DNA from: Norana najaformis
Lineage: Eukaryota; Annelida; Clitellata; Crassiclitellata; Hormogastridae
Assembly (NCBI GenBank): GCA_964023275.1
Contig: OZ029923.1
Location: forward strand, 4,092,729 to 4,156,728
Reading direction: 5' to 3'
DNA: 64,000 nt
Below the pieces are notes generated by a model. It searched no databases, had not been told where the DNA came from, and worked only from the letters and a program-made list of their open reading frames with translations. Positions 2,073 to 63,996 of the stretch are shown piece after piece. Position 1 is the first letter of the stretch, and each line of letters begins with the position of its first letter. A program made the position numbers and the translations under genes.

Positions 2073-2092
2073 AGTTAGCCTCCGACAGCATC

Positions 2093-3331
2093 ATGGACCG
2101 CCTGTTGAAATCCGTTCTGACGATTCGGGAGGTGAAGTTCCGCATGGACGACGATTACGTCGACCGACTGACCCGCCAGTACACGGTCATCATCCTGCTG
2201 GCCTTCGGGTTCCTCGTCAGCACGAAGCAGTTCGTCGGTCGCCCCATCACCTGCTGGTGCCCCGCGCAGTTCACGGACAGCCACCGCGACTACGCCGACG
2301 CCATCTGTTGGGTGAGCAACACCTACTATCTCTCCATGGAGGAAACGATACCTGGAGAGAAGTTCGTTCAGCAGAAGAACAGGATGATGATCAGCTACTA
2401 CCAGTGGGTACCGTTGATCCTTGTCTTCCAGGCCCTTCTGGCCTTCATACCGTGCCTCTTCTGGCGCTTCCTCAATCGCCGATCAGGCGTCAACATGACA
2501 GCCGTCATGGACGCGGCTCGCGTCTGTTCCCAGGCGTCCTACCTGGAGATACGCGAGAAGGCGATCCGGTACGTCGTCAACCAGATGGACCGGTACTTGC
2601 TGGCGCAGCGAGAGTACCGTACCGGATGCATAGTACGCATCAAGCACTTCATCGCCAAGACGTGCTGCCTCATCGGCGGTAAGCTCTATGGTAATTACCT
2701 CATCTCGTGTTACATACTAATCAAGATCTTCTACGTCGTCAACGCCGTCGGGCAGCTGTTTCTGCTCGACGCCTTCTTGAAGATCGACTACCAGATGTAT
2801 GGATTACACGTCGTCGAGAAACTCATGCGAGGTCAGGACTGGGGTTACTCGGATCGCTTCCCGCGCGTCACCCTCTGCGAGTTCGAGATCCGGCACCAGT
2901 CGCGGGTCCACAACTACATCCTCCAGTGCGCCCTGACGATCAACCTCTTCAACGAGAAGCTCTTCGTCTTCCTCTGGTTCTGGTTCGTCTTCCTGGCCAT
3001 TGTCACGGTCGTCAACTTCCTGCGCTGGCTCTTCCGGTCCCTCTACTGGCCCGGGCACGTCCAGTACGTCCGCAAGCAGATCCGCGTCATGGATGCCACT
3101 CCCCGCGAGGCCGGCACCCTGGCCAAGTTCGCCGAGAACTATCTCCGTCGCGATGGGATGTTCATCGTACGTCTGATCGGGATGAACATGGGAGAAGTCG
3201 TTGCCGGTGAGGTTCTCTGTGGACTCTGGAACAACTACAGCCCCGAAAGGAGAACACTGGCGGAGAAGCCAGGCGGACGGAAGTACGCGTCGAAGAGCAG
3301 GGCGAACGGAGGTCGGTTGGAAGTGGTATGA
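2093..3331 (+). CDS. Innexin (gap-junction channel protein), complete, single exon
   Basis: Predicted four-pass membrane protein of 412 residues. Innexins assemble into gap junctions or hemichannels in the plasma membrane and pass ions and small solutes between cells. Visible features: first membrane segment about residues 30-45; first extracellular loop with Cys54, Cys56 and Cys72 in a CWCPAQF...ICW context; the family signature YYQWVP at 102-107 opening the second membrane segment (about 104-124); third segment about 191-217; second extracellular loop with FPRVTLCEF (Cys252) and Cys269; fourth segment about 280-305. The C-terminal tail is short and ends RLEVV. The start is supported by an in-frame TAG at 2072-2074, 21 bases upstream, so no longer N-terminus is possible without an intron. 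Length is normal for the family. Coding DNA is GC-rich against AT-rich flanks. No splice sites are needed, so the gene appears intronless here. Which paralogue it is cannot be told. Confidence 0.97.
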   Translation: MDRLLKSVLTIREVKFRMDDDYVDRLTRQYTVIILLAFGFLVSTKQFVGRPITCWCPAQFTDSHRDYADAICWVSNTYYLSMEETIPGEKFVQQKNRMMISYYQWVPLILVFQALLAFIPCLFWRFLNRRSGVNMTAVMDAARVCSQASYLEIREKAIRYVVNQMDRYLLAQREYRTGCIVRIKHFIAKTCCLIGGKLYGNYLISCYILIKIFYVVNAVGQLFLLDAFLKIDYQMYGLHVVEKLMRGQDWGYSDRFPRVTLCEFEIRHQSRVHNYILQCALTINLFNEKLFVFLWFWFVFLAIVTVVNFLRWLFRSLYWPGHVQYVRKQIRVMDATPREAGTLAKFAENYLRRDGMFIVRLIGMNMGEVVAGEVLCGLWNNYSPERRTLAEKPGGRKYASKSRANGGRLEVV

Positions 3332-9872: not shown

Positions 9873-12718
9873 CTACTTCTTTATCCTCAAGTCCAGCTCT
9901 CCGTGACTTCCCAGAGGCACTTTTTCCAGGTCGCTCCCATCGACCGGAAGGTTAGGCTGTCCCGCCAGAAGAACCCCGTGAGCGGGCTGGTAACGGTGCT
10001 GCAATCCCGGGACACATCTATTGGATGGGACCCTCGTGCCAGCTAAGCCACCAGAGGAACCCAGAGGCGGCTGCGACCAGGACACACCTGGTCCGGACTT
10101 GAGAAGCTCCGAGGGACTCTGCGTGGTGAAGCACTTGGAGTAAGCGAACGGGGACAACATGGCTGGCGGCCCCAGCGGTGCGAAGTAGGCAGAGGCGCTC
10201 GTTTTGGGCGAGGCCAGGATGGCACAGACCCTGTCCTGGGGAAGGGACAGACGATGTCCGCGGCGACACGGTCCAGCGCTCCAGACATGCGTTCCCAGGT
10301 GAACCTTGAGGTTTCCCTTGGTCGTAAACGACTTGGAGCAGACGTTGCACTGGAAGGGTTTGTCACCAGTATGCGTTCGCATGTGGATCTGGAGGGCGCT
10401 GGCGCTCGAGAACGGCTTCCGGCAGGACTGGCACACGTGTCGCGGCGAGCTCTTCCGTCGCGGGCTTCCCGAGCATCTACCTGTCTTACGAGACGACTTT
10501 GAGGCGGTCTTGAGCAGGTGCTCGACGGGAACGGTATTCTTCTTGGCATCTGCCTTCAACAGGTTGCTGTTTGGACTGCGTTTGTCTCGGTCTGCTGTTT
10601 TTACGACCTCGGCTGATGTAAGATCGATGCTGGATGTAGTTGGAAGAGCGGTTGCCATGACGACGGGCGGAGGAAAAGAAGCGGCAACAAGAGTCGAATT
10701 GGGTGGCGGGGGATGAGCGATGGATGGAAGACTGCTACCGGGAATTTGTATGGGCGATGTACGGAGTACGTTAGATGGTGGACTGATATTCTTCGGGTAA
10801 CTGGTGAGATTTTGGTCATTTTTGTCTCCAGGAGTCGGAGAGATTTGGAGACGGGAAGAAGAGCGGGATGAGGAGAAGGAAGAGTAGTCTTCTGTATCTG
10901 CATCCGGTTCCAGTTTCACTTTGCTCAGATCTGGAACTGGGTTTCCTGCGTCCGAAGGTTTTGAAAGCTGATTCGGAACCTTTTTTAAAGAGCTGTCCGA
11001 CGCAGTTGAACTCTCCGAAGTTCGTTTTACCCTTGATTTTGAAGCTCCTTCTTTCGAGCCATCAATCAGCAATGGCGTCGCCTCTTCTCCAGCCGTACCT
11101 GAATCCTGCATGGTTTCAGGATTGGAACCGGATCGTCCACAGACCCGGATGTATGCGTCGGGCACGGAGGGACTCCCGGATTGGTTAGAGGGAACATCCG
11201 GAATGAGATACGAGTTACCTCCGCATTCCGGATACCTTTCAAACTCAGCGGAGATGCGATGCGACAGCATTTGAATCTGTGTTCCGAAGGCGCATTCCGT
11301 GCGAAAGACAATTGCCTCGAGTTGTTTCAAAGGATTTAGCTTCGTCGACGAATCTGAAACCGAGTCAATGTCTTTGAAATCTGAAATCAATCCAGAGCAT
11401 CCTGATGGTCGAGAATTCTCCGATGCCTTCACCAACCTGTCAGATGCTACAGCAGCTGGTTGCTCATCGGCTTCAGAGGAAACTTGACTCTGATCCGGTG
11501 CCGCATTTGCTACGAAACCCGCCATCGGTTTCATCCGATCTTGAACTGGCGACTCCAAGATCCTGTCTCCAGCACTTTCCACTTGGTTGCGCCTCACCTT
11601 GCCGTTAGCGTTATGTCTGAAATCCATCGTTGCCTGGCAGTGTTCTGCGTCGTCCACGGTAACAGACGCGATCGTGGTGTTTCCATGGACACGCGGCTCA
11701 ATATCGTCCCGGAAACTGTTTATTGTACTACTTTCCACAGCACCGCAGCTCTTTGAATCCATCGAGTTTTCTACTTTCGACGACCCAGGTTCCCCGTACG
11801 TTGCAAGATGTGGGGTCTCAAATGTGCCAGCACTATCCAAGATTGCATCTGGATCTAGAAGTTCAACAGTTTTCCGCCGTGCTTCGATTTCAAAAAAACC
11901 GTTCTCACTGTCAAGGCCATCTCTTTTCCTGCGTGAAACATTCATCTCCTCCGCGCCTTTGATTTTCAAGACCTCCGTCGATGCATGAAATTGATCAGGA
12001 AGCGAGCTCTTTCCAGTCGAATGACTTCTCAGGCGTCTCTTTTGGTGTTTGGCAGCGCCAATGCCGCTACCACCCTCATTCGAGTCGGACAATTCCTTAC
12101 CAGGCTCGAAGTCAAGGAGGTTCATGTCTTCATGTGGCTCCGAATTCTCGTCATCGCTCTTGAAAGAGATCGACGCTTCCGCTTTCCGCTTGCGGTTAAG
12201 AGAACCCCTTAAGCCATGCTCCCGTGATCTCTCCTGATTGTCTGCAGTAGTTCCAGCACTAGAGACTTGGAGCTCGGAGGGCTGGAGACCTCTTTCAAGT
12301 CCGTAATGGTCGCCAAGAGTCTCAGCAGAGGTGGTGGAGATCTTAGGGTCAGAGATAGTGGATCCAAAAGCCGTGTTATTACCAGCACCTGGGAAATGGT
12401 TTGCCAGGAGAGGATCAGACTCCGGAACTAGTTTCAACGTACCTCTTGGTTGATTCGGTCCCAGAATTCCGGGAGATTCGTTCGACTTCCGTTCATCTTC
12501 GTCGGCCATGTTAGATTGACTGACGGATGATGTGACACGTGACAAATCGAGCAAACTGTTACTTCCTCCTTCATCGATGCTGCACAAGTTGAGAATAACA
12601 GGTGTTGTGTTTCTTCTGGATGAAGATCCTTCGCATCGATGACTCGAACAACTTCTATCCGGAGGGCAAAGGTCGTCTGTTCTGTAGGCATGGAAATTAC
12701 ACGACCGCCAGGTGTCTC
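9873..12718 (-). CDS. sall: spalt terminal coding exon (disordered region and zinc-finger doublet)
   Basis: Acceptor ttctttag ends at 12719. The exon opens GA GAC ACC, completing a Gly codon in phase with the upstream exon, and runs 2846 bases to TAG at 9873-9875 (protein end DLRIKK). The zinc-finger doublet is at about 10285-10440. The reading frame also stays open about 145 bases into the intron, so the open frame overstates the exon. Confidence 0.85.
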
Positions 12719-15700
12719 CTAAAGAAAAGAACCAGTTTAAGGCTATCTCCATGGAAACCAACTCGATGACGTACATGGCTTGAGCACTATTACAGATGCG
12801 CCATAGAAGTTCTCTGATTATTATTGTTACTGTTGTTGTTCTTTGGACCAAGAAAATAAACAATATACTGTCACCATGGAAACGCGAAATGGTGAAATAA
12901 ACGAATTTGTCAAATAAGAGTATCAGTGTGTAAGTTTGCGAGTACTTTTACATCACTGCATGTGTATACGTCGTACGGACGTACATACGTACGTATGGGA
13001 TCGTCCATTAAGGAAATAGGGGGAGCTAGAGGTCACCCAAATGGGGATGAAGTCTGACAAGGGGGTTTAATGGGGCTCAATGCGGACGACCGCTTCATAA
13101 ATTGGTACATAATTATTCAGTACAGCCTTTACTTTAATTATATACCAATTTCTGTCAGACAGCAGGGAATCTGTACTGCGTTGGATCTAATTGGAGTCCA
13201 TTTGCTTGAAGCGGCAGTATAAAATTACCCCACCATGTACCACTGTTAGCTCTACAAGATCAAAAGAGTATCCGATTCTTGGCCTTAGTTCTCCTCTGGA
13301 GTGTGGCCGTCGGTAAACGGGATTGCAATTGTAATTGTAATTGTAATATGACATTTATAAAGCGCAAATTCAAGAATAAACTCATCAGGAACGATCCCGA
13401 CCCAAATCAATGAGACCACTGTCAAATAATACAGAATTCAGGCGCTTGCGAAACTGCGGAAGGGACAAACTGAGGAACTCAAGCCGCAGCTCTCGGGAAA
13501 GGCGATTCCAGCTATTAGGTCTAACGTAGGCAAAGCTTCTAGACTGAACTGTAGCTGGGATGGGGATGATAATGCGGACAGATACGGACAAATACAGGAC
13601 GGGTCAAAAGGTGGTCATTTTTCCCGGATTTTCTTCGTGGACAACTTCTATGTACGTACGCATGTATTTTGATACTTTTGTAGCGCATTACTTTAAAAGA
13701 TATCCCCACACTGTGTTGGACTTTTGGCGCAGAACTTCGGCAACAGTCTGAATCCTAGTTTCAGAAGTCAATCTTGCGAATTTCTCTGTTCATTGAACGA
13801 TGGCAGACTTAAATAACTTAGTCTTGTTCTAACAGAGTAGGCCTAATTATTTACTTAATAATGAGCTCTAATTATGTAGACCCATCGGCCGGTCATAAAG
13901 CGTCATCTTCAGTCGGATTTACGGCATGCCGTAACGCCATAAATTGAAATTTATTGCTCATAATTGTTGGCGTTAGACCGTGTAAATCTCGTCAAAATAT
14001 TTATTTCTCATCGAAATTGACGGCGGTTTCGAGTAGCCACCCTGCTTAGTCAAGTAGTCGGCTAAAACAACTCTTACCCGTCATAATTTTATGCTCGTAA
14101 CGGTCGAAAAGTAAGAACGACGAGTCCACGACACTTTCTTTCATAAGTGTTCACTGCGTCGTTCGCAGATGACCTTGGCGAAATCCACACGGCTACTCTG
14201 CGATCGTTAAGTTTAATGGATTTTCGATGGAGAATCCTTACTCAATACCAGTTAATAGATCAGTGGTCATGAGTGTTATTGAGCATAAAGATTTCTAGAA
14301 AATCGGCTGCGGTACTTAAAACTGGGCGTTGAACAGCTAAAGAGATAATTTGAAACGTGAACGCGTTTATGACGAAGAAACTGTGTACAGAACCGTGCTC
14401 GTTGTACCAAGGAATTTTTATGACTGTAAGCAATTATTGCAGCGATAAGCACATAATATATGACCGCAAGAAGTAGACTAACACTTGGGTAGTTCTAGTA
14501 AACAGGTATCTTAAAAGACGATTTGTTTACAATTAGTTGAACAGCGCCATCATAAACAGCCATATCTCCGTTAAGAGACAATCTATCTTCGTGTTGACTT
14601 CGGTTTTAATTCCCGTTTATTAGCTTGTTCTAGAGAATTTCCAAAGTTTTATTGTGTTCAATCAAAATATCAAATCATGTTCTCGTATTTTTCCAACGAT
14701 TATTGTATTGAATAATACTGTCAAATCGTGTTTCGTGTTTTTCCAAAGTTCATTGTATTGAATCAAAATATCAAATCATGTTTTCGTGTTTTTCCAATGT
14801 TTACTTCATTGATTTAAAATATCAAATAAAAACAAGTGTTCTAAGTTAAAATCGCTGTAGGAAGTGAAAGCAGTTTCTGTTCAATTTTCTTGGTTTCTCG
14901 AACACGAGGTAATCCGTATTTTTATACTTATGAATAAAAATTTAATTAGTCAAAGTTTTAAATCGGTCGCCTTTATTTTCGTCCATTGTTCAACTCCTTT
15001 TCTCGATATTTCTAGCTGGTCGGCGTTCCAGTTCCAAATGTAGTTTTTGAGTGACTACTGTAGGAGTTACTAGTTACAATTACAAGTAGGCCTACAATTA
15101 CATGCAGTGTAGTGTATTGCGTTGTAACTTTATTATTACGCTCGAATTCACAGAAAGAAACTGAAATTTCACAGCAGCGCTACAAAATGCGAAAATGTTA
15201 AAAAATACTGTCTATATAATTCGCATTGTAGTTTTAGTTATGTGATGTGATATGAGGCGATGGCAGTGTTATGATGTTGATACTAAGACTCACCTTCTTG
15301 ATTCTGAGTCCCTGGAGTCGTGAGTTCTTCTTCCAGCTCTCTCTTGCACACAACCTTGTCTGTTCTGCTACCAGATCTCTCTCCTCCAAGTCTTTCAGTT
15401 CCAGCGGCAGGGGGCGCTTCATTCGGTTCCCGCATCACATCAACCGAGTCCGAATCTGCAGTAGAGCATCGACGTTCATGCGCCTGAATAACATCCGATT
15501 CCATCTCGTTCCACTTGACTGGATTTCGATCACCGGCAGCTTTTGCAGGACTGATCCTGGTTCCTGCTGGACAGAGCCGCTGCTGTAGTTGCCCTAGCAA
15601 CTGCATCTGGTACTGCTGCTGCTGTTGTATCGTCCACAGCAAAGTATTCAGGGATGAAACGTCCATCAGTTGGGCAGGGACTCCGGGTGGCGCATGATCG

Positions 15701-53071: not shown

Positions 53072-53158
53072 CTATTGGGTCTCTGTGTGAATTTCAATTT
53101 TCTCGACAGACATGTCGGGATTCAGTTCGGTGGCGCCCATAATTGCAGCCGATAGCAA
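53072..53158 (-). CDS. epb41: 4.1 terminal exon
   Basis: Acceptor tctattcttcag, then 28 codons and TAG at 53072-53074: LLSAAIMGATELNPDMS and VEKIEIHTETQ. This is the well-known C-terminus of protein 4.1/coracle. Confidence 0.93.
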   Translation of the reverse strand: MLSAAIMGATELNPDMSVEKIEIHTETQ

Positions 53159-56100
53159 CTGAAGAATAGAAAACACAAAACTCATTCAACACTTCCGACC
53201 TAAGTCGATTTTTAAAAAATAAAGGAATGAAAAACGTCGTGAAATAAGCGTCAACAACAAGACACTCAGTTTAAAAACAAGCACAACACCTCAGGTTCTT
53301 CAGCGTTTTTGTGCAGTTCCTAAAATACACTACAGAAATGTTCAGTTATGTAAATATGTATATACACATACATATGTACATACAGAACCTGGTTATAACA
53401 CCATCTTTGGTAATCATAACAACAACCACCTTCCTTATACAGACACTGGGTCATAATTTGAACTAAAATTTTGGATCCATATGTCCACGATCGCAATTTT
53501 GAAATTTGTGTTATAACAAAGCGTGTCATTATTATTATTAATAATATTAATATTATTATTAATATTAAACAGATGTTTATAACGCGTGGAATTGAAAACA
53601 GCCTGTGAATTTGGTAATTTTACGCATGTAAAAATATCAAACACAGGAAGAAGCATGGGGAAAGCCCAACACTGGCATAAGAAACTTCATAAATCCGAAA
53701 ACGATTCTGTTCATCGGAGAAACCCTCACCTTGTCAAAGTCGATTTCGTTCGTATCATCAACCTGTGTAACAATTGTGGTCTTCTTCTCAATTCTTGTCT
53801 CAATCACACCGTCCTTCTCAGTCTTGTGCTACAGAACAATAACAACACAGAACTCACTTCAAAGACGTCGTGAAACTTCTTCAATACCGTTGACACAGTT
53901 ACTATTCTCATTATTTTCAAATTGTCTACCTTTCCGTTTAGGATCATAAAATGATCAAAGCATTAAAAATAATACTACTAATAATAATATGATTTAAAGA
54001 GCACCATAGTATGGCCGAAGCCGAAAAAAATGGCGCCGTGCATGTACAGTTATTTGCCAACTGCAGCCACGTGCGGCGTAGGAGTCAGCATTTTTACTCT
54101 AAAAACAATTTGTAATCGTAATAAAAAATTTAAAAAGCGCCACTTCAAGGTATACTGATCAGAGGCGCTCCCAGTCCGACGACCCAGAAACACTGGGGAA
54201 CAAGTAGGTCTTCAAGCTCTTGCGGAAGAGAGGGGGAGATTAATTGTACACCCCACCATCTCGGATCGTAAGTTTAAAAGCATCGGACGATCAAAGCATT
54301 GTCTGGGATGCCATCTGTAGACAGTTCCAGTGTATCAGTATTAGTACCTCAGTGACCATGGTGCCATCCGCTCCTCGGTATGTGCGTGTGGTGGTCCGGG
54401 TCGTAGTGGTGACGCTGTATGGACTCCTGTCACGATCAGCATATGGAGGCAAACCTTCATCGCCTTCAGCCAGCTACACACACACATACAATGTCAACAT
54501 AGTTATCTTACAGGATGTAAAGTAACATAATCTGCAATAGCCTCGTCATCATCAAAGCGCCGCATAAATTGGTAATTAATTCGAGGCAGCCACCAGCCTC
54601 GTCATCATCAGTATCAGCAGCATCATAATTCAGTATAATTCTTGTAATCATCAGTAGCTACATTGGTTAAAGCATAATGCACGAAGATACCGGTTTGTAT
54701 ACTGAACGTTGTTAAATTTCAGAGATATAAATCTCGAGTTAGCATGACCCCCGCACGGGAAACTTAAACTGCATGGTGTCCGTTCAAATGGGCAGTGGTG
54801 GTGAAGGAGTTCACATGATGAATTCATTGCAAAATGAGCAGGGTCGAAGCCACATGGTTGCTATAGAAAACCGTGTACATTTACATTTACCATACTGATT
54901 GTCTTGATACGTATACAATCACTGCTCAGTTACGAGTTGCGGATGATTTTTTGAAGGGTCATACTACACGACCAGCTTAATAACGCAAGTCTTCTAATTT
55001 TGAGTATGGATTTAAGGAATGATGCATTTCAAAGATGATGTTCTGGTATGTCGATTTCCAAAAAGACACCGAGAAGCTGGACGCAGGTTGCAGAGCTGAA
55101 ACTGTTTGGCCACGGTTTACTTAATCAAAACCTTGACAGCTAATACCCTGCCAATGAAGTTATTTTTACACATGATGCTCATTAAAAACAAGTTTAAAAT
55201 TAGATCAGCAAATTTAAAGTATGGCAAAAAACAAGTTTAAAAACAGATCAGCAAATTTAAAGCAAGAAAAATCAAAAAAAGAAATCTTTCAAGCTATGAA
55301 ACACACACCAAACCAAAAATGCACGGGTCACATACGAACCAAAGCAAACCGCCCCTGCTTTAACCTTACAACCAAAAGAAGCAAAAAGTAACAAAGAAAT
55401 GTAAGGTAGCTACCGACAATTTGAATGATTCAAAAATCCTGAAAGCTGATCTTCAAATGTGACTGATCTCCATAAATTAAAGTAATACTACTCAATCACA
55501 GTACACCTCAATAAGCAGGAGACAAATGAACTGGATTGGACACATAGTATGGGGAAATTCTCTCCTGAGGACAGTGATTGAAGGAAGAATAAAAGGAAAG
55601 AAGGTTCCAGGAAGACCAAGGAATATGCTGTTGGTCTGGACGATGGATAAAGGAAGAAGATGGGCTACAAGGAAGTCAAAGAGAGGGCACAGAACAGAGT
55701 GGCAATGTTGGATTCTTGGACCTGCTTAAGGGCTGAACACTGAAGAAGAAGCGCCCTCTACACGAAAAATCCACTCAGAAGGGATGAACTAGTTCACAAC
55801 ACCAGGTCAACCTAAGATTTTAAGAATCCAACCTTAAGCTGTTGGGAAAAGAAGGAAACCTATTCAATCTCGAAGTCCCATACAAATAAAAGAAAATTAT
55901 AATCAATGCCAACTCAGCAGCAAAAAGAAAATTATAATCAATGCCAATTCAGCAGCAGAAAAGAAAATTATAATCAATGCCAATTCAGCAGCAAAAAGAA
56001 AATTATAATCAATGCCAATTCAGCAGCAAAAAGAAAATTATAATCAATGCCAATTCAGCAGCAAAAAGAAAATTACAATCAATGCCAATTCAGCAGCAAA

Positions 56101-59100
56101 AAGAAAATTATAATCAATGCCAATTCAGCAGCAAAAAGAAAATTATAATCAATGCCAATTCAGCAGCAAAAAGAAAATTATAATCAATGCCAATTCAGCA
56201 GCAAAAAGAAAATTATAATCAATGCCAATTCAGCAGCAAAAAGAAAATTATAATCAATGCCAATTCAGCAGCAAAAAGAAAATTATAATCATTGCCAATT
56301 CAGCAGCAAAAAGAAAATTATAATCATTGCCAATTCAGCAGCAAAAAGAAAATTATAATCAATGCCAATTCAGCAGCAAAAAGAAAATTATAATCAATGC
56401 CAATTCAGCAGCAAAAAGAAAATTATAATCAATGCCAATTCAGCAGCAAAAAGAAAATTACAATCAATGCCAATTCAGCAGCAAAAAGAAAATTATAATC
56501 AATGCCAATTCAGCAGCAAAAAGAAAATTATAATCAATGCCAATTCAGCAGCAAAAAGAAAATTATAATCAATGCCAATTCAGCAGCAAAAAGAAAATTA
56601 TAATCAATGCCAATTCAGCAGCAAAAAGAAAATTATAATCAATGCCAATTCAGCAGCAAAAAGAAAATTATAATCATTGCCAATTCAGCAGCAAAAAGAA
56701 AATTATAATCATTGCCAATTCAGCAGCAAAAAGAAAATTATAATCAATGCCAATTCAGCAGCAAAAAGAAAATTATAATCAATGCCAATTCAGCAGCAAA
56801 AAGAAAATTATAATCATTGCCAATTCAGCAGCAAAAAGAAAATTATAATCAATGCCAATTCAGCAGCAATAAGAAAATTATAATCAATGCCAACTCAGCA
56901 GCAAAAAGAAAATTATAATCAATGCCAATTCAGCAGCAAAAAGAAAATTATAATCAATGCCAATTCAGCAGCAAAAAGAAAATTATAATCAATGCCAATT
57001 CAGCAGCAAAAAGAAAATTATAATCAATGCCAATTCAGCAGCAAAAAGAAAATTATAATCAATGCCAATTCAGCGGCAAAAAGAAAATTATAATCAATGC
57101 CAATTCAGCAGCACAGATCGAAACTAGCGAGGACAGCATGCGCAAAAACAGGTGCAGGTGAACTAAGAGGAACTACTGGTAAATTAAACCACTAAAACTC
57201 CAAGCAAACACAGCGCAACAACTAAAATCAGAAACGAAAACAAAGAATCTTGATTGCTGAGCGAAAAACTACAGGCAGAAAAAAACCGAAGCAATCCCAC
57301 GCAAAGCGTGCGTGATGCGTCTGCAAGTGATAACGAACGCTAAGTACAGGATATGGACTGGACGAGAGGATCATGTTGCCCTTTGAGTCCCTGACGTTCG
57401 TCCCGCTGACACGGGACGGCGGTTTTTCCAGGGTGGGAGGGCCACGCCGTCTGGCTGTGCTGTCTGAGTAGGCACCGTCATCCAAAACCTGTTAAAATTG
57501 ACTGCAGGCTGCAGAAAGAGAAATCTGTTGCAATCGCAAACATCTGCCGCATGTAGAAACTGTTTCGTTTGACTCTGCCCAGCACACATGACTTTCTTCC
57601 AGTTTTTAGATCACTTAGATAGCCAGGTTTGCAGCACTTCTTAGGGATCCTAGAAAGGAGCTATATAAGTGTCTTAATATACACATACATACACACATAC
57701 ACACACACATGCAAGCATACACAAATCCATACACATATACATGGACATATGCACAAACAGGGTATTCATGATTCACTGTTATACAGTAAGATCCATTAGC
57801 ACAACCAAGACATTTGCAACAATATACGCTTTCTTTGATCAAGCTGAACTTTCGGATTTTCCTACAGAACAGTTTAAGCTAAAACGACCTTGAAATTTCC
57901 AAAATATGTCGATAATAATATCTAACAAAAAGGAAAATGCTCTAAATATACCAACAAACAAAACAAAGAGTATAAAAAAGGAATCTAAAACTTAACACAT
58001 AAAAGGGTCAGATACGTTTAAGAAAACTAAAAATCAATCATCTACAACTGAACCAGTTACGCATCAGAAGTACGTCTACAAGACATCTGTGAACTAAATC
58101 TCCCCAGATGTCTACCAAAAAATCAATAAAGAAACATACCCCGATCTTTCACGAGACCCACTTACCTCAAGTGGTACGAGGACCTGTCTGTGTAGGTCAT
58201 AGACCTGTCCGCGATGGCCAGGTCTGATTGGCCGGCCATCCTTATCGTACAGATCTACAGCTATCGGTATTCCATATCTGCCATACACCGGTCCGTCATG
58301 CGTTGCCAAGTAGATGGGATTTCCATACTCATCGTATAGATTCTCGATACCCGGGGCAAGCAGGTTGCCCCAGCGATCGTAGACCGGGCCGTCGTAGTCC
58401 CTCGTGATTGGGACCCCGTTGATGTCGCACAGTTCGTAGGTGCCACGAGCGATCGGAACTCCGTACTTGATCAAGATCTGGCCTTCGTGGCTCGGCTGGA
58501 GTGGGTAGCCGTATTCGTCGCAAAGCTGGTAGCCGGGCTTGTCGTAGCCGGCTGGTCTCATGTTTTTGCCATAGACAATCTGCAAGAGGAAGAGCTTGGC
58601 ACTGCAGCAATGAAATTATTTACTCGAAATCAATGAAGTTTTTTATCTAGAATAAAATTCTTCACTTAGGAAATGATGAATATTGTGGGTGGAGTAGCTA
58701 TGACAGCTGCTCTGCCTGGGCACCAGACTCGAAGACCGTGTAGGGACCTTCGGCAAGTCCTTCACTCACAATTGCTCCTGAAGACTGTACTGTTTAACAG
58801 CGATTTTACTTGTTCGGGTCGGGAGCGCCACTGTTGAGTTTATTCTCTAAGGGGTGCTTTATAAATCTTAAATTACAATTACAAGATACTTTAGAATACA
58901 AAGATACCTCCACAGGTACACAAGGATTTCCATATCTGTCGTAGACTGGTCCAATGTGTGTAGGTTTAACGGGCTTGTGCTCCCCATCATAGATATCCTG
59001 AGTCTGTGGCTTCCCGTAAATTCCAAACACTGGTCCCCTGTGGCCGGGCCAGCTGATCGGGTTACCATAGCGATCGTACAGCTGGGTGGGGCTCTCCGCT

Positions 59101-62100
59101 ATTGGGTTGCCTTCGCGATCGTAGACCTTTCCATCGTAGTTGTGTGGAATCGGGTTTCCATACATGTCGCTCAGTTGCTTCTCGCTCTGGACTATCGGTG
59201 TGCCATACTTGATGTAGATCGGTCCCGAATGGCCATCCCTCAGTGGTCTTCCTGTTGAGTCGCACAGCTGGAATCCCTGCTGGTCCCAGGGAGTGCCCTG
59301 GTAAGTTGGTCCGCCATAGCCCTGGGTTCCTTTTGGCTTTGACCAACCCACCTGGGAATAGTTGCCTGGACTTCGCATCAGAGAAACCTGACCCTCCTAT
59401 TGACATTTAAACACACAAACTTTGTTAGCATCTGAAGTATTGTAAGGTAAGGTGATTAAATCATTCATTTAAACACAAACTTTGTTTACATGTTGCCCTT
59501 TTGGGCGGATAAGTGTAACTTAAAACTTAATCATAAAAAGACATGTGAAATGATAATTCACCGGCCAAGAATGAGAAATCAGCAGATAATTTTACCTAAT
59601 GTGATTCCTGGTTTAACCAGGGTACCAGAGATGACAATATTGGGTGTTACCCTAGTGACATTTAAACACACAAACTTTGTTAGCATCTGAAGTATTGTAA
59701 GGTAAGGTGATTAAATCATTCATTTAAACACAAACTTTGTTTACATCTTAATTAATATAAAATAAGGTCAAAAGGTTACGGTAAGGCAATCACTCATTTA
59801 AACACAAGAACATTGTTAGCACCTCAGCTAATGTCAAGTAAGGCACCTATTTAGTTAGCTCCTGTTTAAGGGAATCTCAGCGATCCTTCACAAGCCAAAG
59901 ATTTCAGATGGAACAAAACAAGGTATACGTCAATTCCACTCACATCCATTCCAGTCAAGTTGGGATCTTCTTCCAGAGAGGCATAAGGAACATTGCGCTT
60001 TGGACGGTTCCTCAGATCCAGCGTGGTGATTGGCTGATCCGAGCCAGAGATGACCTCTTCCTTCCTTTCTGTGCTGAACGTCGGACCTAGAAGAACAAGA
60101 ACGAAGAACAAGAATGAAGAACAAGAACGAAGAACAAGAATGAAGAAGAACTCGTCAGAAAACTAACAGAAAAAACGCCAGACATGTGTAGTCCTGCAGG
60201 GAAGAAAGCGAGAACACGTTCCCCTATTATTTTCTTATGTCTCGATATGGAACCTGTTCAAAGTAAAACGGGACAGAAAAAACCAATGTGACACAGCACT
60301 GGTGTCTCAACATGGAACCACTATCTCAACATGGAACCACTATCTCAACATGGAACCACTATCTCAACATGGAACCACTATCTCAACATGGAACCACTAT
60401 CTCAACATGGAACCACTATCTCAACATGGAACCACTATCTCAACATGGAACCACTATCTCAACATGGAACCACTATCTCAACATGGAACCACTATCTCAA
60501 CATGGAACCACTATCTCAACATGGAACCACTATCTCTTTAAAAGGCATCAGGAGATGGCGTAAAGCAACTATGCATTGAGAAATTACTCTCATAAATCGA
60601 TACAGTGACATAATCATTTATTCTAATCATCACTTACTTATTTAATTATTATGCACGTAATTCAGTAAATCTGATTCTGAAGTGCAAGACAACTTGTCCA
60701 CGGTAATTACACAGAATCTCCTCTGCAGGCTTTAACCTACAGTCGTTGGATTACCGAATAAGCGTGCTACTGAATGGACCACATGGAGCAGAATCCTGAT
60801 GCCCGGTCATAAGACGGGGCCACCAATCAACCCATCAAACATCATGTCACATTTGTAAACATCCAAAAAGTCAAAACCCCCATTTGTGCGCTTGCAAATC
60901 AAACATGTGTAAATACCGCCTCACTACTAAACACTGACTTGATGCAAGCAACTGGATGCCATCAAAACAATGGCCTGCCCAAAAGTTTTTTCAATGTAAA
61001 GAACCCAAAATAACCCACACAAAACACAAACGAACAAATTACAGCACAAAGTTAGTTAAACGAACACAAACTGAAAGATCAGTCGCTCATCGCAACTCCA
61101 AACTCTAATCCTTGGTTTTTATGGTGGATCGGTTGGTGACCTCACAGCCTGATCTCCTACCAGCAGCAAACCGCAATCCACTGTGCGTGAGGACGCTGGT
61201 TCACAACCCGATTGTGGATTATTTCAGAGATTTGAATCTCAGGCTTGTTCAGTCCATGCATGGGGACCTTAAATGGCATGGTGCAGATTCAAATGGGCAG
61301 CGGGATGAAGGATCTCACTCGATAAATTCACTGAAAAAAAAGCAGGGTCAAGGCCATACTGTCGCTGTAAAAAACCGTGTACATTTACTTTACTGATTTA
61401 CAGGGGGCTCATTTAAGAGTGTCAGTACTAGCTGGACAGAAACTTTGCAATATCTTAGTCCTGGCTGGGTATCAAACAAGATAACTGAACCAGCAGTCAT
61501 GCAAGTTAACCAACGGAAAACTGCAACACTGAAGAAATTGTTAGGCAACTGCCTCAAATACTCCAGAAATAATCAAACTCAAATAAATATAAAAGAATAA
61601 ACAACTTAGGAGAAAAAAACATACTAATCTATCAAGGTATTATTGCAAAAAACAAAAATATGATGACGAAACGGAAAGTTTGCAATAAAATACAACAACA
61701 GAAAACTGTTTCCTGAATTTAATAATCTTTAGGCAAAAAGATTATTATTATTATTAATAAGATAAGATTATTGGCCAATTAAACGAACATTTCTGCCATA
61801 AATTTCTGCTCGCAAGGAATAAAATTTCTTCTCTCAAACATAAGACGTTTGTACAAAAGCATCTGACATGTTTCCTTTCGGCTCAAAGAACTGCCAAGAT
61901 GTTTATCTATAATTCAACCCAATTCAGCTTTAACTTGTAAATCTGAATTTGGGTCATCGTATTAATTATGCATCTTTGCCTTAAATCCAGGATTTTTCAT
62001 GGATAAAATGGAATGGTGCAAACTACAGATAACGTGAGTTGCCAAACAGAAAATTCCCAGAAACCGGAATTTCGTTAAACATACAGTCTGACGAAAAGGT

Positions 62101-63996
62101 ATATTCCGTTCTTGGAACCGATGCTACACGAAATACCATAACAAACAGCACACAATCTGTAACTTTCAGCAAAGAATCTATAACCTTTCTGTAAAGAACA
62201 ATGTCTGATACAGACTGGCTTGGAGGAAAGAATTCCAAATTCAGTTCATCCATTTAGAAAATGATCTCTTTGTAATCATGAACTCATTGTAAGGTGGTTC
62301 TTGATATCGCTCCAATAGTCAGCATTATCACGAGTTTCAACTGCATAATTGTGGCAACTTATAATGAGTTTCCATAATTATGGCAACTGTTTCCACTGTA
62401 TAATTATAATTATGTTTCCACAATTATGGCAACTTATAATGAGTTTCCACTGTATAATTATGGCAACTTATAATGAGTTTCCACTGTATAATTATGGCAA
62501 CTTATAATGAGTTTCCACTGTATAATTATGGCAACTAACTTCTCATAGCAGACTTTGTTTATCTGTAACAAGCATCTGCACATCTAATCCACAGATGTAC
62601 TTATGTCCTGTCATTAGGAGTCAAAGGGTCGTGTCTGTGCCTTGTGCAAGAGCACTAGACATCGTTCGAATGATAAGCTTTCAAAGGCCACAAAAACGTA
62701 TTGTATTTGATAACTTATATAGCGCTTATTAAAGAACAAACTAATCAGAGGTGCTTCCAGCCGGAGAACCCCAGGGAAGTAAGAACGTCTTTAAGCAACG
62801 AGCTGACTCAGTTCTATCACCAACAGTGACCCTTGCACGAAACGTATTGCACAACCTTGGCATCTGCTCGGAAAATATTTCATCTTACAACTAATGCACA
62901 CAGACAGACAATCAGCCAATTTAAAATCCTGGTTAATCAGAAGTATTTTTCTACAAGAGAGAAATCGGAACTCACCCGACGTGTCGATGGGTCGAGCGGG
63001 TACAAAGCGTCGGCTGGCTGAACGGTCGACCCGGGCGGTTGGCCGGTTCCCGGGCTTTGGGTCGCTGCGACTCTGGTACTGGGTGCGCCCGGAATAGCGA
63101 AACTTGGAACCGAAAAGAGGGAACATCGCACGCAGTTGTGTTTCTGGCTCCTTCAGGCTGGAAACGGAAGATCAGCTCAACGTTATTAAAAGCATGTATG
63201 CATTTACGTAAGTTTGTACGCATCTAATCTGTATATCTGTATTTGCATGTGTCTCTATGTTTATGTACTCGTGTATGGATTGCTGAATGTATGAATGCAT
63301 ATATGTGCATGTGTGTGTGTATGCATGTAGTTATGTATGTATGTATGTATGTATGTGTATCTATGCATGTGTATCTATGCATGTGTATGTATGTATGCAT
63401 GTATGTGTATGTATGTATGTATGCATCTGTGTATGTATGTGTGTATGCATGCATGTATGTGTATATATGTATGCATGTTTGTGTATGTATGTATGCATGT
63501 ATGTGTCATGTGTGTGCATGCATGCATGTGTATATATGTATGCATGTATGTGTATGTATATATGCATTTATCTGTATGTATGTGTGTATGAATGCATGTA
63601 TATATGTATGCATGTTTGTGTATGTATGCATGTGCATGTGTATGTATGCATGTGAATAAATGTATGCATGCGTGTATGTATGTATGCACATATGTATGAA
63701 TGCAGGTATATGTGCATATGACTCATTATATACTGCTTTTTAGGAACCTCTCGTATGAGCAAATCTCTTGCTTTGCAGTTTATTCAATGATATTGGTAAC
63801 AGCAATGGCTCAGTCTTAAAACCAACGCCAGAATGAATCTGCACAATCGATGTTATGTATTTTTCCAGTCGAAGGTGGTCGCAAAATACGAGCTTTACCG
63901 GAAGAATCCGTGATGTTCAACAGCAATCTTCCACAGTTTCTTGGCCATCGTATAATTGGCGAGGTCGTATACCAGTTTACTGGGACCCTGTTCGAA
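53072..63996 (-). CDS. epb41: Protein 4.1/coracle-type FERM protein with novel Y-D-x-Y-G-N-P repeat region (3' part of gene)
   Basis: Nine exons: 63899-63996, 62976-63157, 59944-60086, 58908-59396, 58166-58579, 57348-57488 (end uncertain), 54348-54473, 53730-53828, 53072-53158. Phases agree at every junction (0/2/1/0/0/0/0/0). Protein 4.1 family members link membrane proteins to the spectrin-actin cortex and to septate or adherens junctions. Domains: end of FERM C-lobe (LWKIAVEHHGFFR); FERM-adjacent region (FGSKFRYSGRTQ then a basic RSASRRF); linker; about 300 residues of repeats in two homologous exons; linker; the conserved C-terminal domain (DGVIETRIEKKTTI...TELNPDMSVEKIEIHTETQ). The upstream FERM lies beyond the window. 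A spectrin-actin-binding domain is not visible; the repeats occupy its place. Introns carry a 1.2-kb 35-base satellite, a 19-base array and retroposons. Family assignment is secure; the function of the repeat region is unknown. Confidence 0.92.
53525..53572. repeat. (ATT/AAT) tract in 4.1 intron
   Basis: ttattattattaataatatt run between the last two 4.1 exons. It is partly palindromic. Confidence 0.8.
53730..53828 (-). CDS. epb41: 4.1 exon: C-terminal domain core
   Basis: Acceptor ttgttctgtag, donor AAG/GTGAGG; 33 codons. Reads KTEKDGVIETRIEKKTTIV and VDDTNEIDFDK, matching the conserved GxxETRIEKR...D-D motif of protein 4.1. Confidence 0.92.
54108..54245 (-). mobile_element. LINE 3' end in 4.1 intron
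   Basis: The minus strand reads LFRKSLKTYLFPSVSGSSDW, a LINE ORF end, then gcgcctctgatcagtatacc and gtggcgctttttaaattttt with a ttacgattacaa tail. Confidence 0.7.
54348..54473 (-). CDS. epb41: 4.1 exon: start of C-terminal domain
   Basis: Acceptor tgtgtgtgtgtag, donor GAG/GTACTA, phase 0 to 0; 42 codons. Reads LPPYADRDRSPYSVTTTT and RTTTRTYRGADGTMVTE, the Thr-rich lead-in typical of the 4.1 C-terminal domain. Confidence 0.85.
54539..54610. mobile_element. 40-base insertion flanked by perfect 16-base direct repeats
   Basis: agcctcgtcatcatca stands at 54539-54554 and again at 54595-54610. Between them is a 40-base segment beginning aagcgccgcataaattggta whose sequence also occurs at 47721-47764. 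This looks like a severely 5'-truncated retroposon end with its target-site duplication. Confidence 0.75.
54660..54890 (+). mobile_element. SINE family B copy in 4.1 intron
   Basis: cgaagataccggtttgtata, aaatctcgagttagcatgac, cgttcaaatgggcagtggtg, aaatgagcagggtcgaagcc, then gttgctatagaaaaccgtgt and a (tttaca) tail. Antisense to the gene. Confidence 0.8.
54891..55520. other. 4.1 intron, no feature seen
   Basis: AT-rich. A short duplication (aaaaacaagtttaaaa...agatcagcaaatttaaag) at 55185-55262. No exon. Confidence 0.45.
55520..55745 (+). mobile_element. LINE reverse-transcriptase C-terminal fragment
   Basis: The forward strand reads MNWIGHIVWGNSLLRTVIEG then KGKKVPGRPRN and, after a frameshift, MGYKEVKERAQNRVAM. 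This is the 'W-GH... EG-I-G-R-RGRPR...A-DR' end of LINE ORF2 proteins. Decayed. Confidence 0.7.
55886..57113. repeat. 35-base satellite, about 35 copies, with 385-base higher-order repeat
   Basis: The unit contains gccaattcagcagcaaaaag followed by aaaattataatcaat. Period is exactly 35 bases. Variant units (ttacaatc at 56073 and 56458; cattgcc at 56290/56325 and 56675/56710) recur 385 bases apart, so an 11-unit block has been duplicated. Lies in a 4.1 intron. Because 35 is not a multiple of three, the open frames cycle and are not coding. Confidence 0.97.
57114..57347. other. 4.1 intron next to the satellite
   Basis: Single-copy, with the minus-strand frame of the upstream exon still open to 57228. 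No other feature. Confidence 0.4.
57348..57488 (-). CDS. epb41: 4.1 exon: linker before the C-terminal domain
   Basis: Acceptor attttaacag, phase 0. Codes GAYSDSTARRRGPPTLEKPP then SRVSGTNVRDSKGN. The 3' border is uncertain: the best in-phase donor is CCT/GTACTT at 57348, a weak site. The frame stays open to 57228 and would end in a hydrophobic tail if the exon were terminal in an alternative isoform. Confidence 0.6.
57489..58165. other. 4.1 intron
   Basis: Contains a LINE-tail-like ggagctatataagtg near 57658 and an acacatacacac tract at 57680-57740. No further repeat-type exon is visible. Confidence 0.5.
58166..58579 (-). CDS. epb41: 4.1 exon: repeat block 2
   Basis: Acceptor cttcctcttgcag, donor GAG/GTAAGT, phase 0 to 0; 138 codons. 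Contains QLCDEYGYPL, ILIKYGVPI, DGPVYDRWGN, NLYDEYGNPI, GPVYGRYGIPI and GQVYD in the same order and spacing as block 1, ending VPLE where block 1 ends VPVE. Clearly a tandem duplicate of the previous exon. Confidence 0.9.
58685..58885 (+). mobile_element. SINE family C-like copy between the two repeat exons
   Basis: tggagtagctatgacagctg, the B-box region cagactcgaagaccg, gtgtagggaccttcggcaag, then gagcgccactgttgagttta and gctttataaatctt with a ttacaattac tail. It ends about 20 bases from the splice donor of repeat block 1. Confidence 0.7.
58908..59396 (-). CDS. epb41: 4.1 exon: repeat block 1
   Basis: Acceptor tgtcaatag (or three codons later), donor GAG/GTATCT, phase 0 to 0. After a Gly/Tyr-rich lead (GYGGPTYQGTPW) come four two-part repeats of about 26-30 residues with core pattern L-Y/C-D-x-Y-G-N-P-I, then H/Y-x-G-P-V-Y-x-x-Y-G-x-P, for example QLYDRYGNPI and GPVYDRYGNP. 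163 codons. Homologous along its length to the next exon. Confidence 0.88.
59401..59491. repeat. 91-base direct repeat, left copy
   Basis: Identical, or nearly so, to 59656-59746, from tgacatttaaacacacaaac to aaactttgtttacat. It abuts the 3' splice site of repeat-block exon 1. Confidence 0.9.
59492..59655 (+). mobile_element. LINE reverse-transcriptase fragment between 91-base direct repeats
   Basis: The forward frame reads WADKCNLKLNHKKTCEMI and IPGLTRVPEMTILGVTL. This is the segment after the catalytic YADD box in CR1/Jockey-type reverse transcriptases (N-LKLN--KT-E, LGVTL). Only about 164 bases from the middle of the ORF are present. Confidence 0.75.
59656..59746. repeat. 91-base direct repeat, right copy
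   Basis: See 59401-59491. A third, diverged partial copy of the same catttaaacaca unit follows at about 59793-59850. Confidence 0.9.
59944..60086 (-). CDS. epb41: 4.1 exon: linker
   Basis: Acceptor tgttcttctag, donor GAT/GTGAGT. Codes a polar linker (STERKEEVISGSDQPI, NRPKRNVPYASLEED) with no recognised domain. 143 bases, phase 1 to phase 0. Confidence 0.8.
60085..60145. repeat. 'gaacaagaacgaagaacaa' short tandem
   Basis: About four units of agaacaagaa(c/t)gaagaac lying against the 3' splice site of the linker exon on the minus strand, where they supply its pyrimidine tract. Confidence 0.75.
60305..60537. repeat. 19-base minisatellite, about 12 copies
   Basis: Unit tctcaacatggaaccacta, perfectly conserved over about 230 bases, in the long 4.1 intron. 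Confidence 0.97.
60545..61180. other. 4.1 intron, no exon seen
   Basis: AT-rich. 60685-60780 resembles an inverted tRNA-like SINE head (caggctttaacctacagtcg). Otherwise featureless. Confidence 0.4.
61185..61395 (+). mobile_element. SINE family B copy in 4.1 intron
   Basis: gtgcgtgaggacgctggttc, tttcagagatttgaatctca, catggggaccttaaatggca, gatgaaggatctcactcgat, the 3' end ctgtcgctgtaaaaaaccgt and a (tttac) tail. Confidence 0.8.
61396..62330. other. 4.1 intron, no exon seen
   Basis: AT-rich single-copy sequence with a ttattattattaataag tract at 61743-61760. Confidence 0.45.
62335..62540. repeat. About 37-base AT-rich repeat
   Basis: Units containing tatggcaacttataatgag then tttccactgtataat recur about five times, two of them irregular. 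Confidence 0.9.
62697..62848 (-). mobile_element. Family D repeat, second copy
   Basis: Same motif order as 25480-25620 (tataacttatatagcgctta on the plus strand, gagaaccccagggaagtaag, cgagctgactcagttc, gtgacccttgcacgaaacg). It lies just downstream of a 4.1 exon, as the other lies beside an R-spondin exon. Confidence 0.75.
62976..63157 (-). CDS. epb41: 4.1 exon: FERM-adjacent region
   Basis: Acceptor cttccgtttccag, donor GTCGG/GTGAGT. The split Arg codon is followed by LKEPETQLRAMFPLFGSK and FRYSGRTQYQSRSDP, as in protein 4.1 (FRL..P...GSKFRYSGRTQ). A basic, serine-containing stretch (RVDRSASRRF) matches the regulatory part of this region. 182 bases, phase 2 to phase 1. Confidence 0.92.
63190..63715. 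repeat. ATGT/GCATGTAT tetranucleotide array, about 0.5 kb
   Basis: tgtatgtatgcatg units with many gcatg interruptions in the intron between the FERM-end and FERM-adjacent exons. Open frames on both strands (Met/Tyr/Val/Cys or His/Thr/Tyr-rich) are artefacts. Confidence 0.95.
63899..63996 (-). CDS. epb41: 4.1 exon: end of FERM C-lobe
   Basis: Reads FEQGPSKLVYDLANYTM then AKKLWKIAVEHHGFFR, the diagnostic FERM C-lobe end. Acceptor ttag sits at the window edge (an in-frame TAG forces the border there); donor TTCCG/GTAAAG, phase 2. Confidence 0.9.

Follow-up and report, generated by a model that had tools for sequence, protein, structure and literature searches.

A tandem Y-D-x-x-G-N-P repeat domain, probably a beta-hairpin module, in a protein 4.1 gene of the annelid Norana najaformis

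Protein 4.1 ties cell membranes to the underlying skeleton and is a hub of the membrane skeleton; in flies, its counterpart coracle is found at septate junctions. A periodic Y-D-x-x-G motif is known from the RHS/YD repeats (PF05593), which form long open arrays, and from DUF3659 (PF12396). The beta-flower proteins are described, in the portion of the source available, as mostly bacterial, with short strands carrying [DNEQ]XXG at the hairpin tip and with 8, 10 or 12 strands in a four-, five- or sixfold arrangement (PMC10584680). Here, we analyse a protein 4.1 gene in a 64,000-nucleotide stretch of Norana najaformis DNA (assembly GCA_964023275.1, contig OZ029923.1, positions 4,092,729 to 4,156,728), hereafter the window, in whose coordinates the features are given. 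Two of its exons encode an array of Y-D-x-x-G-N-P repeats. The reading that we consider probable is that they are added beta-hairpin binding modules in a true protein 4.1, two copies placed between the FERM-adjacent (FA) region and the C-terminal domain (CTD), each encoded by one phase-0 exon.

The repeat exons lie on the minus strand at 58908..59396 (R1) and 58166..58579 (R2). R1, of 489 nt and 163 amino acids, has a leader of about 40 residues followed by eight half-units in four A/B pairs, while R2, of 414 nt and 138 amino acids, has a short leader before its own eight half-units; the two are identical at 65/138 aligned residues. Both exons are open in a single frame, AG/GT flanked and in phase 0 at both ends, so that R1 or R2 could be skipped without loss of the frame. 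An earlier sequence-only reading of the window had singled them out, and its exon limits and peptide quotations are correct. The roughly 300 repeat residues it claimed come to 301 in R1 and R2 together, and the two-part unit, which it put at about 26-30 residues, measures 31, 31 and 29 residues in R1, beyond chance by shuffles. Each half-unit is of the type Phi-Y-D-x-x-G-N-P-Phi and spans 12-17 residues, with four A/B pairs per copy. The search pattern for it, composed after the sequences were inspected, matches eight half-units in R1, seven in R2 and seven in a third copy on contig C7, the eighth being recognised by eye at its expected place as VYDRWGNLL in R2 and VFDKHGNLF in C7. The half-units follow one another at 16-15-16-15-17-12-16 residues in R1 and at 16-15-31-17-12-16 in R2, which agrees with R1 once the unit missed by the pattern is placed inside the gap of 31; in the C7 copy they follow at 16-15-16-15-16-12, with one step shorter by one residue than in R1. 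The best self-match lag is 31 in R1, 60 in R2 and 31 in the C7 copy, and out of 1000 shuffles 0, 3 and 0, respectively, do as well. Core residues in common between copies average 5.88 of 10 for half-units that occupy the same position (24 pairs), compared with 4.22 for half-units of the same type at other positions (72 pairs) and 3.38 for those of the other type (96 pairs); with the cores picked by hand, 5.88 was reached in 0/10000 free and 2/10000 type-restricted permutations. All three copies have IKYG at position 2 and V[YF]GxYG at position 6. Because these position-specific signatures and the spacing are preserved in R1, R2 and C7, the repeat appears to be a folded unit, its parts having settled roles, that was copied whole, and this speaks for a folded domain of set size rather than a loose spacer.

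The gene that carries these exons is a true protein 4.1, with FERM, FA and CTD. Nine of its exons, with AG/GT borders read from the genomic sequence, fall in the window, all on the minus strand. E1 (63899..63996) encodes the end of the FERM domain (FEQGPSKLVYDL...VEHHGFFR) and has a matching exon at loci on contigs C7, C14, C3 and C4; its acceptor AG stands at the window edge, just before 63996, and the earlier FERM exons lie outside the window. They continue upstream on the same strand, with counterparts at the paralogous loci among the matches listed, and the joined, trimmed upstream peptides match FERM_N (6.4e-8), FERM_M (1.9e-24), FERM_C (1e-23) and FA, all over the Pfam cut-offs; in the PDB, the FERM part comes closest to chains of the Band 4.1-like protein 3 FERM domain (E=3.8e-91). 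E2 (62976..63157) is the FA region (PF08736, E=3e-14), identical to the C7 paralogue at 39/60 residues, and is followed by a post-FA linker, E3 (59944..60086), which ends in phase 0 and has no match in a Pfam search. Downstream of R1 and R2, E6 (57348..57488) is a linker with one DSKGN motif and is likewise without a Pfam match. E7 (54348..54473) is the Thr-rich start of the CTD region, with 33/42 aligned residues identical to C7, E8 (53730..53828) belongs to the CTD, and E9 (53072..53158) is the last CTD exon and holds the stop codon. E9 alone stays under the PF05902 cut-off of 25 bits (20.6 bits, E=4.9e-4), and the joined E7, E8 and E9 exceed it (34.8 bits, E=1.9e-8). The FERM end, FA and CTD named in the sequence-only reading are thus real.

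That reading had left open whether the repeat replaces or accompanies the spectrin-actin-binding (SAB) segment of protein 4.1. The SAB is described in mammals in the available part of a review of the family (Baines, 2006; PMC1459144). We searched the N. najaformis genome (608 Mb in 17 contigs, the sole genome compared) for PF04382 and found no match over the cut-off of 27 bits, in an exon-by-exon search that a split domain could escape; the sole match (E=3.13, 17.5 bits) is on contig C3 at 18.4 Mb, distant from the 4.1 genes. Since the SAB is mammalian in the text available and no genomic PF04382 match passes the cut-off, an addition fits better than a replacement.

A search of the genome with R1 or R2 returned at least three places, namely R1, R2 and one C7 exon; this is a lower bound, the best candidates having been scored and the C14 micro-exons described below not being among them. 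The C7 exon sits in a second 4.1 gene, which has matching FERM end, FA, E3, repeat, E7, E8 and CTD exons, and in which we identified no counterpart of E6. Because its exons stand in the same order, a single repeat exon among them, this paralogue indicates that the repeat belongs to protein 4.1. A codon pattern for YDxYGNP, applied genome-wide, points the same way, as 5/6 matches fall in the two 4.1 genes (a backward control pattern gave 1). The sixth match, on C10, was treated as chance, since 3020 bases inspected by eye held neither neighbouring units nor a convincing 4.1 exon. R1 and its C7 counterpart share 77/155 aligned residues, with a proportion of synonymous differences (pS) of 0.80 and of non-synonymous differences (pN) of 0.33, and pN reached pS in 0/500 bootstraps; the pN of neighbouring exons between the window gene and C7 is 0.12-0.34. 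These values indicate that the repeat is coding and under purifying selection, and because synonymous sites are near saturation, they point to an old duplication and to constraint at the protein level.

The paralogues do not end with C7. At the loci on C14, C3 and C4 there are likewise exons for the FERM end, FA, E3 and E7, in part as weak matches, and E8 and CTD exons were recognised there by eye. A genome search with the CTD family gave C14 a score over the cut-off (31.2 bits) and the single exons of C11 (the window contig), C3 and C4 scores below it (16.8, 15.2 and 15.1 bits); the CTD of C7 was unlisted there, yet reaches 40.1 bits with its exons joined. By their exon content, these loci bring the 4.1 genes of the genome to at least five (C11, C7, C14, C3 and C4), as against the "one such in invertebrate genomes" of the available part of Baines (2006; PMC1459144). 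An unrooted tree of the joined peptides (five rows, 309-361 residues) groups C11 with C7 (97/92) and sets C11, C7 and C14 against C3 and C4 (91/90). The repeat region of C14 opens with a longer exon, its start placed by eye, that ends in a first half-unit, LFDKLGNVFNP, followed by four micro-exons (48, 39, 48 and 48 nt, beginning and ending in phase 2), each coding for a single half-unit: LGGQAYDRYGNPCDP, ILFDKYGNKHEP, SLEPAYDRYGNPFDA and VPPYTYDSHGLPYDR (C14:20793672-20795563). Such a train is suited to alternative splicing of the number of repeats. In a micro-exon scan of C14, the sense strand gave 10 candidates, among them these four micro-exons, and the opposite strand 0; the corresponding counts are 3 and 1 for C3 and 8 and 1 for C4, where inspection by eye revealed Gly/Tyr-rich stretches and isolated D-x-x-G-N-like motifs but no array. 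By eye, C14 and C4 have stretches resembling E6, with a possible one in C3, and exons of this type contain one D-x-x-G-N motif each (DSKGN, DHHGN, DEHGN, and DRYGN in the possible C3 counterpart).

This series permits a further, more tentative reading, which we hold to be possible but the less probable one: that a new domain was born within protein 4.1. A D-x-x-G-N hairpin exon, for which the E6-type motif might have been the seed, would have multiplied; the array would then have become fixed as an eight-hairpin domain in one exon, and this domain would have been duplicated. The C14 micro-exons would keep the exon-per-repeat stage or, in reverse, reflect a later break-up, and the fold would be one absent from the PDB that converged on the beta-flower pattern.

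Returning to the reading of added hairpin modules, each half-unit would most likely fold as a beta-hairpin turning at D-x-x-G, and eight such hairpins would pack as one compact beta-rich module. The FERM domain would hold the protein at the membrane, and the module, in tandem in the window gene and single in its C7 paralogue, would offer an extra binding surface before the receptor-binding CTD. Through the phase-symmetric exons, splicing could set the number of modules while keeping the frame. The sequence-only reading had proposed a structure prediction of the repeats, and AlphaFold2, run with two-row alignments (R1 and R2), gave models consistent with part of this picture: strand or bridge residues, many of them single, stand on both sides of the turn in 8/8 half-units of R2 and 7/8 of R1 (DSSP strings read by eye). 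R1 reached a mean predicted local distance difference test score (pLDDT) of 56.8 and trimmed R2 one of 70.4, and neither model matched a PDB structure, which at such pLDDT argues for neither a new nor an old fold.

A different view of the region, put forward in the sequence-only reading as an elastic spacer, is that a flexible Gly/Tyr/Pro-rich segment without a fixed fold stretches or spaces the protein from FERM to CTD. Its richness in G, P and Y would suit this role, as would the block-mean pLDDT of 23-34 in the first 40 residues of R1 and the candidate exons of C3 and C4, which are Gly/Tyr-rich here and lack an array. However, the fixed eight-part layout, with spacing and position-specific residues kept in three copies at about 50% identity, disfavours it, as do residues 31-70 of trimmed R2, whose block-mean pLDDT is 80-84 with two sequences in the alignment, and we regard a spacer as unlikely. 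More doubtful still is a multivalent platform for tyrosine phosphorylation, in which the tyrosines of YD-x-Y-G-N-P would recruit SH2 or PTB partners. While many tyrosines do stand beside acidic residues in what is a cytoplasmic scaffold protein, several positions have C, S, L or F in place of the first tyrosine, and it is the turn and its flanking hydrophobic residues that are the more conserved, as they would be in a hairpin.

Just as doubtful, in our estimate, is that the repeat truly belongs to the beta-flower/Tubby clan (CL0395), as a shallow beta-barrel meeting lipid or membrane. Family searches bear out the sequence-only reading, which did not recognise the repeat from any described family: R1, R2 and the C7 copy have no match over the cut-off in Pfam, NCBIfam or PDB sequences (PDB best E 0.66), matches in PHROGs are weak (best E 0.019), the joined repeat exons of C14 have no Pfam match, and this repeat domain appears in no title or abstract start among the protein 4.1 literature matches listed. 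The top Pfam match of R1 (E=0.011, 16.5 bits) and of the C7 copy (E=0.0072, 17.1 bits) is nevertheless the 4-fold beta-flower family PF21784, with a cut-off of 25 bits that a hand-made consensus nearly attains (24.4 bits, E=3.9e-5). Machine shuffles lose the match, whether short motifs are kept (0/6) or the shuffle is full (0/2), and the random sequences described below indicate that the family's own repeat has the same pattern and spacing. Against membership stand the best match of R2, which is to another family, the C14 exons, which match none, and the behaviour of artificial sequences. Two of three hand-typed decoys pass the cut-off (31.3 and 26.4 bits), these decoys being identical to the consensus at 48/121, 59/121 and 80/122 residues, so that the third is not independent. 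When the linkers were re-dealt and the ten-residue cores kept, the consensus matched PF21784 in 3/3 trials (14.6, 30.6 and 32.2 bits; two over the cut-off) and the C7 copy in 1/3 (20.5 bits). Sequences that were random apart from Phi-Y-D-x-x-G-N-P-Phi every 15-16 residues matched in 3/3 cases, at 63.0, 47.9 and 41.0 bits. We therefore rejected membership, as the real matches stay under the cut-off and pattern-only sequences far exceed them. Because pattern and spacing alone produce it, the PF21784 match is a likeness of pattern and no evidence of descent. The D-x-x-G element, present in 16/24 half-unit cores counted by eye, is not specific. As an observation on the profile itself, PF21784 can call pattern-only sequences members, at 41-63 bits versus a curated cut-off of 25.

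Finally, that the repeat exons lie outside the 4.1 mRNA, as a separate gene, pseudo-exons or chance, is very improbable, for although their joining is read here from genomic sequence, the same exon order in C7, the in-phase splice sites, the selection at the protein level and the matching C14 micro-exons all speak against it.

Elsewhere in the window, the intron between E6 and E7 holds a minisatellite (35-bp unit, 35 copies, 98% matches, 55888-57113), and a second tandem repeat lies at 60305-60536 (19-bp unit, 12.2 copies, 100% matches). By eye, a 418-codon open frame on the plus strand (2075-3331) is innexin-like, and a 1024-codon open frame on the minus strand (9873-12947) has a C2H2 zinc-finger pair resembling Spalt-like proteins.

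That a conserved extra domain occupies the position of the mammalian SAB suggests that other animals arm the 4.1 hub differently. The paralogue series in one genome, which runs from no array seen through a micro-exon array and a one-exon domain to a two-exon tandem, is a testable case of the origin of a repeat domain; if the domain was indeed born within protein 4.1, a single genome displays several steps of that birth. Compared with the protein 4.1 and Band 4.1-like proteins (EPB41, EPB41L3; coracle in flies), the window gene has the FERM-FA-CTD order in common and differs by the repeat domain placed between FA and CTD. With respect to the RHS/YD repeats, the long open arrays of that family contrast with the fixed eight half-units of the 4.1 repeat domain; in Pfam, R1, R2 and the C7 copy have no match to PF05593, and the match of the C7 copy to DUF3659 (E=0.064) is under the cut-off. 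As for the beta-flower families (PF21784-PF21786, Tubby clan CL0395), the D-x-x-G turn of the 4.1 repeat fits their [DNEQ]XXG, and their 8, 10 or 12 strands, as given in the available part of the source (PMC10584680), contrast with the eight turn-bearing half-units of each 4.1 repeat domain. The near-identical pattern of the two repeats favours a like hairpin geometry, such that the 4.1 repeat may work like a beta-flower.

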